Source of the DNA: Achromobacter dolens
GTDB taxonomy: Bacteria; Pseudomonadota; Gammaproteobacteria; Burkholderiales; Burkholderiaceae_B
DNA length: 49,142 bases
Direction: 5' to 3'
Assembly (NCBI RefSeq): GCF_902859745.1
Contig: NZ_CADIJW010000044.1
Coordinates: 1 to 49,142 of the forward strand
The notes below the pieces were generated by a model. The model saw only the letters and a program-made list of their open reading frames with translations, did no database searches and was not told the origin of the DNA. Positions 31,384 to 32,991 of the stretch are shown one piece after another. Within the stretch, counting starts at the first letter, position 1, and every line of letters starts with the position of its first letter. The translations under genes and the position numbers were made by a program.

Positions 31384-31602
31384 ATGTCGAATCATGTCTA
31401 CAAGCAGATCGAACTGGTGGGCTCGTCCACCAAGTCCACCGACGATGCGATCAGCAAGGCCATCGAACGCGCGTCCGAAACGCTACGCCACCTGGATTGG
31501 TTCGAGGTCACCGAGGTGCGCGGCCACATCAAGGACGGCAAGGTGGCGCACTGGCAGGTCGGCCTGAAGATCGGCATGCGGCTGGAGGATGGCGACGTCT
31601 AG
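31384..31602 (+). CDS. Dodecin family flavin-binding protein
   Basis: A 72-residue protein with the complete dodecin pattern: NHVYKQIELVGSS, TDDAISKAIERASETLRHLDWFEVTEVRGHI and VAHWQVGLKIGMRLE. Dodecins form hollow dodecamers that store or buffer FMN/riboflavin in the cytoplasm; the Trp in HLDWFEV and the Gln in HWQVG are the flavin-stacking and binding residues. AAAGGAG lies a few nt before the ATG. The length is normal. It is followed by the large gene-free repeat region. Confidence 0.95.
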   Translation: MSNHVYKQIELVGSSTKSTDDAISKAIERASETLRHLDWFEVTEVRGHIKDGKVAHWQVGLKIGMRLEDGDV

Positions 31603-31673
31603 CGCCGCCGAGGCGCGATGGCGAGCGCCCGGCATTGACGCGGCGGGCGCGACGCGTCCGCGGCGCTGCTCCT

Positions 31674-32248
31674 TTTTTGAGCGGTCCTTGCAAGTGCTTG
31701 TCGGATAAGATTTTTTTCGGCTTGTCATGAGACTGTTCAGAGGTTTGTCCACATCCGGTGGGGACAAATGCGAGACGGGGCGGGCGGGCGCGGCGCATCA
31801 CGTAGCTGGCGCGGCCGGCGCACGGCGCCTGAGCGTTTATTGCCCGCCAGGCGCAAGGCCTTGGCGGTAAAGGGATTTTTGCGGCTGCCCGCAGGCTGTC
31901 CTCAGCCTTATCCACATTTCCCGGGGACAACCCGACGCCTTTTCGGGCCGCCCTGGGCCTTTCTTGATCAGCCCTTGCAGGTGCTTGATGTGCAAGGGAA
32001 AAGCCGAGCTGCCCTCATCCTGTCCTCATGCTTGTCCACAGAATGCTGGGACAAATGCACATGGCGGCGCGGATGCTGGCGGCAGGCGCGGGATGCGTCC
32101 GCAGGGCGGTGGATAAGTGTCCTGGGAATCGGCCAAACGGTCGATTGCGCATTTTTTGATCGGCACTCGCAAGTGCCTGGCATGACAGGTTTTTTCGCAC
32201 CTGCCCCACACCTGTCCTCAAGCTTCTCCACAGTTGGCGGGGATATTG
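31674..32248 (+). repeat. Array of four ~96-bp gap-free repeat units with DnaA-box-like 9-mers
   Basis: Units lie at 31674-31769, 31837-31932, 31961-32056 and 32153-32248, with spacers of 67, 28 and 96 bp. Anchored on a T-rich TTGA (TTGC in unit 2), every unit has a palindrome CAAGNNCTTG (one mismatch in units 3 and 4) at +14, CTGTCCTCA (CTGTTCAGA in unit 1) at +56, TTNTCCACA at +68 and GGACAA (GGATAT in unit 4) at +85. The 9-mers are TTGTCCACA (31745), TTATCCACA (31908, a perfect DnaA box), TTGTCCACA (32032) and TTCTCCACA (32224). TTGTCC with GGACAA also forms an inverted repeat in units 1 and 3. A reverse-oriented near-box GGTGGATAA lies at 32108 in the last spacer. Confidence 0.85.
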
Positions 32249-32252
32249 TTGG

Positions 32253-32325
32253 CCCCCACGCGGCGCGCACTGCGTGCGCTTGCTGCCCTCCGAGGGGGCT
32301 GCCCGGCCTTCGGGCGGCCGGGCGC
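32253..32325. repeat. GC-rich palindromic intergenic element
   Basis: Nested short palindromes (GCGCGCACTGCGTGCGC, CCCTCCGAGGGGG, GCCCGGCCTTCGGGCGGCCGGGC) follow one another here. The text is of the style found repeatedly between genes in Bordetella and Achromobacter. I see no coding potential. Confidence 0.55.
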
Positions 32326-32332
32326 TTAATCC

Positions 32333-32364
32333 ACAAAAAAAAGCCCCCCGGCTTGGCGGGGGGC
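32333..32364 (-). terminator. Rho-independent terminator of FMN reductase gene
   Basis: On the minus strand, stem GCCCCCC / GGGGGGC (32358-32364 and 32343-32349) is followed by a run of eight or more T residues. It lies 72 bp after the stop of the gene at 32437. Confidence 0.88.
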
Positions 32365-32366
32365 GT

Positions 32367-32392
32367 GATCGCCCGGAGGTAGACGGGCGATC
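32367..32392. repeat. Perfect 8-bp inverted repeat
   Basis: Arms GATCGCCC (32367-32374) and GGGCGATC (32385-32392) flank ten bases. It lies just before the terminator of the minus-strand FMN reductase gene and may stabilise its 3' end. Confidence 0.5.
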
Positions 32393-32436
32393 GGTTGCCG
32401 GGCGGGCAGGCGCCCTTGGCCCGGCAGCGGCGGCAA

Positions 32437-32991
32437 TCAGGCGTTGAACTTCTTGACCCAGTCGACGTAGCGGTCGATCCAGCCTTGCAGGAACTTGCGC
32501 GTGCCTTCGTTGGTGATGTTGTACTGGTCGTCGACCAGGCCATCGGTGTACTGCAGGAAGACTTCCGGCGTGGTCAGGGCGTTGGCGCCTTCGGCGGCCA
32601 GTATGTTGCGCAGGTGCTGCTGCATGAGGGCGGTGCCGGCGGCGCTGGGCGAGGTGCCCAGGATGCCCACGGCCTTGCCGGCCCACGAATTCTGGCCCCA
32701 CGGACGGGTGCCCCAGTCGATGGCGTTCTTGATGGCGGCGGGCACCGAGCGGTTGTGCTCGGGCGAGACGAACAGGATGCCCTGGGCATCGAGGATCTGC
32801 TGCTTGAGCTTGGCCGCGGGCGCGGGCAGGTTGTTCTCGTTGTCCTGGTTGTACAGCGGCACGTCGCCCAGGCTGACGTAGTCGAACTTGAAGTCCGCGG
32901 GAACCAGTTTTTCCAGCGCGCGCGCCAGGCGCAGGTTGATCGATGCGGCGCGCAGGCTGCCGACGAAGACGGCGATCTTGTAGGTGCTCAT
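32437..32991 (-). CDS. NADPH-dependent FMN reductase (ChrR/azoreductase family)
   Basis: A 184-residue flavodoxin-fold enzyme. The signature is VFVGSLRAASINLRLARAL (FMN phosphate loop), VPLYNQDNEN, GILFVSPEHNRSVPAAIKNAIDWGTRPWG and GKAVGILGTSPSAAGTALMQQHLR. These match E. coli ChrR/YieF, which reduces quinones, chromate and azo dyes with NAD(P)H. AGGAG about nine nt before the ATG at 32991 supports this start. It ends at a strong terminator. Its neighbour upstream on the same strand is the AtzH-like gene, 79 bp away. Confidence 0.93.
   Translation of the reverse strand: MSTYKIAVFVGSLRAASINLRLARALEKLVPADFKFDYVSLGDVPLYNQDNENNLPAPAAKLKQQILDAQGILFVSPEHNRSVPAAIKNAIDWGTRPWGQNSWAGKAVGILGTSPSAAGTALMQQHLRNILAAEGANALTTPEVFLQYTDGLVDDQYNITNEGTRKFLQGWIDRYVDWVKKFNA

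Follow-up and report, generated by a model that had tools for sequence, protein, structure and literature searches.

The window analyzed here, a 49,142-nucleotide stretch of the Achromobacter dolens contig NZ_CADIJW010000044.1, which is part of a 6.29-Mb draft genome, contains an array of four 101-bp units without indels at positions 31667 to 32246 (Table 1, which also gives the start of each box II). The array is flanked by genes for a dodecin and an NADPH-dependent FMN reductase. Because both of these genes point inward, the array is bounded by two 3′ ends and therefore is not a promoter element at this locus. The dodecin gene adjoins the array in all 36 same-genus stretches (each of 3.1 to 3.8 kb), and the FMN reductase gene is present in 29 of them. 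The product of the FMN reductase gene has an identical counterpart in A. ruhlandii LMG 1866, and the terminator of this gene is a hairpin with a T-tract at 32343-32364.

Table 1. Genes, repeat units, and DnaA-box-like 9-mers at the array locus
Feature	Position in the window	Strand	Remarks
Dodecin gene	31384..31602	+	Pfam PF07311, E 2.7e-30; points into the array; conserved neighbor
Unit 1	31667..31767	+	Fis-like 31668-31682; IHF-like 31691-31703; 77.3 bits with model R1
Unit 1 boxes	III 31733-31741; II 31745-31753; inverted I 31759-31767		III weak; II TTGTCCACA
Unit 2	31830..31930	+	Fis-like 31831-31845; IHF-like 31854-31866; 75.6 bits with model R1
Unit 2 boxes	III 31896-31904; II 31908-31916; inverted I 31922-31930		III CTGTCCTCA; II TTATCCACA
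Unit 3	31954..32054	+	Fis-like 31955-31969; IHF-like 31978-31990; 67.9 bits with model R1
Unit 3 boxes	III 32020-32028; II 32032-32040; inverted I 32046-32054		III CTGTCCTCA; II TTGTCCACA
Unit 4	32146..32246	+	Fis-like 32147-32161; IHF-like 32170-32182; 76.2 bits with model R1
Unit 4 boxes	III 32212-32220; II 32224-32232; inverted I 32238-32246		III CTGTCCTCA; II TTCTCCACA
NADPH-dependent FMN reductase gene	32437..32991	-	Pfam PF03358, E 5.5e-37; points into the array; usual neighbor

Each unit comprises a tandem weak-strong pair of DnaA boxes (III and II) with a 3-bp gap, followed after 5 bp by an inverted box (I), which brings the number of DnaA-box-like 9-mers to 12 in 580 bp. Measured against the E. 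coli consensus, boxes III and I are weak. The original prediction, which offered as candidate roles a DnaA titration or reactivation site of the datA or DARS kind, a captured plasmid origin, or tandem small RNAs, had placed four gap-free units here, and they are indeed indel-free and alike far beyond chance. Its spacers of 67, 28, and 96 bp agree with the distances of 163, 124, and 192 bp between successive box II starts, from which they follow. Some details had to be amended. The anchor CTGTCCTCA is generally present, except in unit 1, which has CTGTTCAGA, and the anchor CAAGNNCTTG is replaced by CAGGTGCTTG in unit 3 and by CAAGTGCCTG in unit 4. The DnaA-box-like 9-mers at the fixed offset, described as one perfect box and two of a high-GC form, read TTGTCCACA, TTATCCACA, TTGTCCACA, and TTCTCCACA in units 1 to 4. 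The last anchor turned out to be the end of the inverted DnaA-box-like 9-mer, with TTGTCCC (ATATCCC in unit 4) on the other strand.

The array is abutted at 32251-32324 by a dispersed GC-rich repeat, which is found in several copies of ∼82 to 97% identity in each Achromobacter genome searched. These copies are sometimes tandem, and related stretches occur in Variovorax and Acidovorax plasmid records.

Repeated units with T-runs could also be read as tandem small RNAs, and terminator-like patterns number 7 versus 1.4 expected. This role is, however, highly improbable: there is no Rfam match at the gathering score, the best sub-threshold ones (E ≤ 10) fall on the terminator hairpin near 32343-32364, and the consensus fold of 103 units (RNAalifold) has an energy of -0.67 kcal/mol and contains three invariant pairs but 0 covarying ones. 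In addition, the T-run lies inside the unit, and position 3 of box II varies freely on one side. A search for sigma-70-type promoters gave no match, which is weak evidence, given that 0.1 such matches were expected by chance. One of the sub-threshold Rfam matches, to anti-hemB (32335-32402, minus strand, E 0.0013), coincides with the terminator hairpin of the FMN reductase gene.

Conservation and chromosomal position

A blastn search with an 801-bp query returned one array-length match in 36 of the 37 same-genus genomes, the remaining one (G029) being only 78% complete, and no match in 24 genomes from other families of the order. A search with TGTCCTCANNNTTNTCCACA gave 45 exact matches, from 15 genomes, and all of them were inside the array. 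With one mismatch allowed, this sequence has 3 matches in 42 of the 43 same-genus genomes and 0 in G029. Identity over 36 aligned loci is 81% in the unit columns, 93% in the core formed by boxes III, II, and I, and 47% in the inter-unit spacers. Applied to 27 loci of named Achromobacter around the FMN reductase gene, a strict filter recognized 4 units in 24 loci, 3 in two, and 0 in one. The locus is syntenic and chromosomal, and the units found elsewhere in the genome have the same DnaA-box layout. The prediction of a replication-linked function was to fail if the unit proved to be a dispersed repeat without a conserved offset; the offset is conserved.

Beyond the genus, the pattern is present in 14 of the 15 genomes of a Bordetella-like genus (g31), which, judging from its sequences, is Bordetella or a close neighbor. 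All nine g31 loci opened have 3 to 7 units near an FMN reductase gene, and in seven of them the dodecin gene is inside the stretch. One g31 locus (L078) matches B. pseudohinzii, which has 6 units at its own locus, with 91% identity over 2.6 kb. In the named Bordetella loci around the FMN reductase gene, the strict filter found 6 units in B. pseudohinzii, 2 in genomosp. 2, 1 in sp. BOR01, and 0 in B. petrii BT 1 9.2; thus, the array is not universal in Bordetella as NCBI names it. Dodecin-adjoining arrays are also found in g32 and g62: that of g32 has 3 units and is accompanied by the FMN reductase, and in that of g62 the filter counted 5 units and the model 6.

The unit collection consists of 189 units from 45 loci, selected by a filter that demands an exact box II and a nearly exact box I and thereby fixes those columns by construction. 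Two Achromobacter loci (L028 and L030) lose one unit each to this filter because the box II of that unit reads TTGCCCACA. The sequence model R1 was trained on 103 units from 14 of the 36 Achromobacter loci and all nine g31 loci. Trained only on the arrays of these two genera, it recognized units in 199 of the 268 genomes of the family, representing 40 of its 43 genera (E ≤ 0.01); many of the matches are weak, and those in several genera outside the training set range from 1e-8 to 1e-19.

Of the complete Achromobacter genomes, 13 have a dif match; in these, the array is located at 0.60 ± 0.05 (range, 0.52 to 0.67) of the arm from gidA to dif, 27 to 38% of the genome away from gidA, and in all 13 it points to ter. 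The comparison of its position with those of oriC and ter, as proposed originally, places it mid-arm. The array is on the opposite arm in 2 of the 14 complete genomes (G016 and G021), as judged by eye from the dnaA strand, and inversions around the origin keep its distance. These 13 positions are not independent tests, as the gene order is shared by descent. Two other genera are represented by three genomes. In G104 (g31, dnaA at base 1; 3.72 Mb), the array is found at 0.95 Mb; in G107 (g31, gidA at base 19; 4.04 Mb), it is found at 3.00 Mb; and in G129 (g33, dnaA at the start; 4.59 Mb), an array of two units, at a different locus, is found at 3.32 Mb. All three positions are at about 51 to 55% of the half-genome as measured without dif. 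For comparison, the distance from oriC in E. coli is ∼0.96 Mb (21% of the genome) for DARS2 and ∼1.5 Mb (33%) for DARS1. The relevant part of PMC4585315 describes the relative distances of DARS1 and DARS2 as conserved among 59 E. coli genomes and datA as being close to oriC.

Numerous DnaA boxes might suggest a replication origin, either oriC or that of a captured plasmid or integrated element. Given that dnaA and gidA are 1.8 to 2.4 Mb from the array in 14 complete genomes, that the GC skew shows no sign change at the array locus, and that the array appears in no plasmid or phage record (distant blastn), an origin here would be most surprising. The original verdict of "probably not oriC" was right, as the array is neither at the skew switch nor in the dnaA/gidA region, whereas the captured plasmid origin finds no support at a syntenic chromosomal locus. 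In G027, a DnaA-box-rich region is located instead upstream of gidA (L041, 7700-9750), where several near-parS copies resembling TGTTTCACGTGAAACA were noted by eye along with scattered DnaA boxes; perhaps this is where parS and oriC lie in the genus. Both forms of the origin reading were rejected: dnaA, gidA, dif, and the GC skew place oriC ∼2 Mb off, and the better plasmid matches fall within the dispersed repeat (32250-32326), the rest being short and weak, with no match to the array.

Complete Achromobacter genomes contain 7 to 8 units each (R1, E ≤ 0.01). Thus, G016 has 4 units in the array, 1 at a distance of 117 kb, and a pair 3.7 kb apart elsewhere, and G000 has 4, 2, and 2. The nearer extra site lies 99 to 134 kb from the array in 8 complete genomes among the matches listed; in G016, it adjoins what we take, by eye, to be a gene for a Sir2-type deacetylase-like protein. 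The extra pair is found mid-arm (0.53 to 0.65) in all 7 genomes in which it was placed, in 6 of them on the arm opposite the array. Two full DARS-like units 3.7 kb apart (L186 and L190) mark this second mid-arm locus, next to genes that, named by eye, presumably encode flavoprotein, MocR/GntR-like, and DedA-like proteins.

Some other head-to-head pairs with the 5-bp gap in Achromobacter (L183/L187, L184/L188, and L185/L191) have no clear box III or Fis-like anchor and for this reason were not counted as units; some such pairs may regulate genes. The palindromic pair represented by L183 and L187 (G016:C1:3405760 and equivalents) is ∼0.12 to 0.26 Mb from dif in 8 complete genomes among the matches listed. 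A double DnaA box, TTTCCCCAAAGTTATCCACA (L192 and L193; G016:C1:401127, G027:C1:433920, and equivalents), occurs once in each of 15 Achromobacter genomes; in the 14 that are complete, its distance from dnaA is 0.39 to 0.49 Mb. As its spacer resembles that of the E. coli nrdA double box, it may belong to a DnaA-regulated promoter.

The presence of units at other loci, with other neighbors, also bears on the idea that the array is some other architectural element bound by DnaA, Fis, or IHF, such as a transcription roadblock between the convergent genes or a macrodomain organizer. Its location between two 3′ ends, its fixed modules for several proteins, and the element CAAGNNNTTG, to which IHF or another protein may bind, would fit such a role. 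Nevertheless, a single intrinsic terminator would be enough, and the hairpin with its T-tract is already in place, which, together with the units elsewhere, makes this explanation improbable.

Box geometry and known DnaA-binding loci

In all four units, the tandem of a weak box III and box II has the spacing of DARS1 and DARS2 (12 bp from start to start), and the inverted box I is also at the DARS spacing, starting at +14 from box II after a 5-bp gap. Thus, unit 2 reads CTGTCCTCA-3-TTATCCACA-5-inverted TTGTCCCCG, DARS1 of E. coli K-12 reads TAATACACA-3-TTATCCACA-5-inverted TTATCCACT, and DARS2 of the same strain reads TTCTTCACA-3-CTATCCACA-5-inverted TTATTCACC, with identical offsets of 0/+12/+26 for boxes III, II, and I and identical orientations; the E. 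coli 9-mers were assigned to these boxes in the present analysis from the description in part of PMC5742627, not from a printed core sequence. According to that description, DARS1 and DARS2 share equal box spacing, with box I opposite to boxes II and III and a head-to-head contact between I and II. Such head-to-head contact of DnaA molecules drives ADP release, as outlined in part of PMC8682772. At the g31 loci, the inverted box is TTATCCCC and in some of them TTATCCACC, which is even nearer to DARS1: several loci have TTATCCACC where DARS1 has TTATCCACT.

R1 had no match up to E 10 in the E. coli DARS1 and datA stretches. In the DARS2 stretch, its best match, which is not significant (E 0.089), corresponds to a second site rather than to the assigned core. 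The DARS2 region (L106, 3452-3474) contains a second head-to-head pair, TTATCCACA-5-inverted TTATCCCAG, with the same 5-bp gap.

The gap spectrum serves as the control for the 0/+12/+26 match, in place of a formal probability. The pattern TCCACA-N(0-24)-GTGGAYAA was searched for in 47 genomes from as many other families of the order, yielding 126 rows or, once palindromic duplicates were merged, 105 sites. The gap between the 9-mers is 5 bp in 63 of these sites, with every other gap seen in at most 6, and 33 of the 47 genomes have a 5-bp head-to-head site. The pattern read backward gave 37 matches over all gaps, compared to the 126 rows for the real one. Similarly, TTNTCCACANNNNNNGKGGAYAA matches 188 of the 399 genomes of the order, and its backward version is represented by 0 among the matches listed. 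This enrichment across families indicates that the head-to-head spacing is selected generally, beyond the array.

Like the array, DARS2 is a stand-alone piece of regulatory DNA well away from oriC, and the involvement of Fis sites, perhaps also of IHF sites, would be common to both. DARS2 is in the mutH promoter region (455 bp) and has one core per locus, compared to 4 in this array and 3 to 7 in the g31 loci opened; its IHF and Fis sites are spread over a regulatory region of ∼400 bp, whereas in the array Fis-like and IHF-like sites are within ∼65 bp of every core. The array also differs in its neighbors, in its inverted box, TTRTCCCC, and in belonging to the order Burkholderiales. DARS1 is a single site in the 101-bp promoter region upstream of uvrB and, as part of PMC5742627 describes, acts in vitro without added factors.

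The main rival explanation is that the array is a DnaA titration or datA-like locus, which would lower the initiation potential by soaking up DnaA or promoting ATP hydrolysis. Any DnaA cluster titrates to some extent, the density of DnaA-box-like 9-mers is high (12 in 580 bp), and each unit holds a tandem with the 2- to 3-bp gap of a "double DnaA box", the form that E. coli DnaA prefers in ChIP-seq according to part of PMC11317965. The DnaA-box cluster of datA likewise includes a tandem weak-strong pair with a 3-bp gap. However, datA has no inverted box at +26, which makes the originally suggested datA-like role less likely, and pure titration would not need the fixed, strongly enriched 5-bp head-to-head gap. 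In datA, boxes 2 and 3 have an IHF site between them that is essential, as described in the pertinent part of PMC5835720; rather than two essential boxes with IHF between them near oriC (the location given for datA in PMC4585315), the array has the box layout of DARS and lies mid-arm. All this leaves titration or a datA-like function an unlikely, if still serious, reading. Several DnaA-binding clusters away from the origin, like the array, also exist in B. subtilis; this organism has no IHF, and the datA and DARS loci are reported absent from it in the part of PMC13220808 that deals with them.

Fis-like and IHF-like sites and the proteins that could bind them

The Fis consensus GnnYAnnnnnTRnnC, as given in part of PMC4245941, is found at -77 from box II with at most one miss in 186 of the 189 units and with none in 71. 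All 6 specified bases are present in unit 4. The mean score of 5.32 of 6 was reached by 1 of 1,000 column permutations of all 189 units; in an earlier control with every fifth unit, 0 of 200 permutations reached the real score.

The IHF consensus TAAnnnnTTGATW has its best offset at -54, where the element CAAGNNCTTG resides, with a mean score of 5.76 of 9 (6.38 in g31 alone). As many as 95 of 1,000 permutations reach that score, and the IHF-like site is suggestive only, since the permutation controls did not separate the match from chance. The form of the element, YAAGNNNTTG followed by a T-tract, resembles an IHF site with its A-tract, but the match was not separated from chance in permutations of either every fifth unit or all 189. 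An IHF site accompanied by an A-tract is the layout of the lambda H′ site.

Fis-sized open frames with an HTH_8 domain (83 to 136 amino acids) are present in all eight genomes searched. In three g31 genomes and one g33 genome, two related genera, the Fis-sized gene is located beside genes that we take, from their sequences, to be dusB- and purH-like. According to the pertinent part of PMC4245941, the conservation of Fis is specific to E. coli-related gammaproteobacteria; given this limit, the HTH_8 protein is a candidate Fis.

Aligned with the E. coli protein, the DnaA proteins of G030 (Achromobacter) and G104 (g31) retain D269, R281, R285, L290, R334, R399, and T435, and both have His in place of R227. 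In the DARS2 assays described in part of PMC4245941, R227, L290, R399, and T435 are crucial, and R334 has a moderate effect. Accordingly, the His at position 227 is a mark against strict equivalence.

Predicted role of the array

The locus is probably a cis-acting non-coding array of four tandem DARS-like modules that would regenerate ATP-DnaA. Of the roles suggested originally, the DARS-like one gains support from the exact box geometry, the Fis-like site, the mid-arm location, and the conservation; a datA-like role is less probable, and a captured plasmid origin and small RNAs find no support. From these observations we infer binding of DnaA, Fis, and IHF, release of ADP, and an effect on initiation. 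In each module, ADP-DnaA molecules would meet head to head on the strong box II and the inverted box I, and an additional DnaA molecule would occupy the tandem weak box III. The head-to-head contact would then weaken the binding of ADP, and the DnaA set free in its apo form would take up ATP again. The Fis-like site, perhaps together with an IHF-type bend, 30 to 65 bp upstream of box III, might gate the reaction. Located mid-arm, the array would double upon passage of the replication fork and raise ATP-DnaA for the next round.

The core is of a known kind. New features are the multiplication of the module, the close packing of Fis-like sites within it, the synteny that extends across genera, and the occurrence of arrays at mid-arm. 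To our knowledge, ATP-DnaA regeneration outside E. coli and its relatives has been little studied. Even for B. subtilis, it is described as unknown in part of a 2026 review (PMC13220808). Part of PMC4245941 describes the conservation of the DARS2 core as specific to E. coli-related gammaproteobacteria, and part of PMC10380432 describes DARS1- and DARS2-like sequences as conserved in many proteobacteria. A search of the open-licence literature for DARS in Bordetella, Burkholderia, Achromobacter, betaproteobacteria, or Burkholderiales found no study of such sites among the matches listed.

The chances are evenly balanced that DnaA reactivation in the Achromobacter/Bordetella family is a modular, copy-number-tuned device, in which complete DARS2-like modules (a Fis-type gate, a bend, and a three-box core) have been multiplied in tandem into mid-replichore arrays, with further units at other loci, the opposite arm included. 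Passage of the fork at mid-arm would then raise ATP-DnaA stepwise. The number of units varies naturally in a syntenic array, so that a dosage model of replication timing is directly testable. That the head-to-head gap is exactly 5 bp across Burkholderiales suggests a wide distribution of DARS-type DnaA contacts and provides a pattern with which to search for them. Replication timing may thus be set by DARS-like modules in a second large bacterial group. If this is true, DARS would be an ancient replication timer that beta- and gammaproteobacteria have in common, not one peculiar to the relatives of E. coli.
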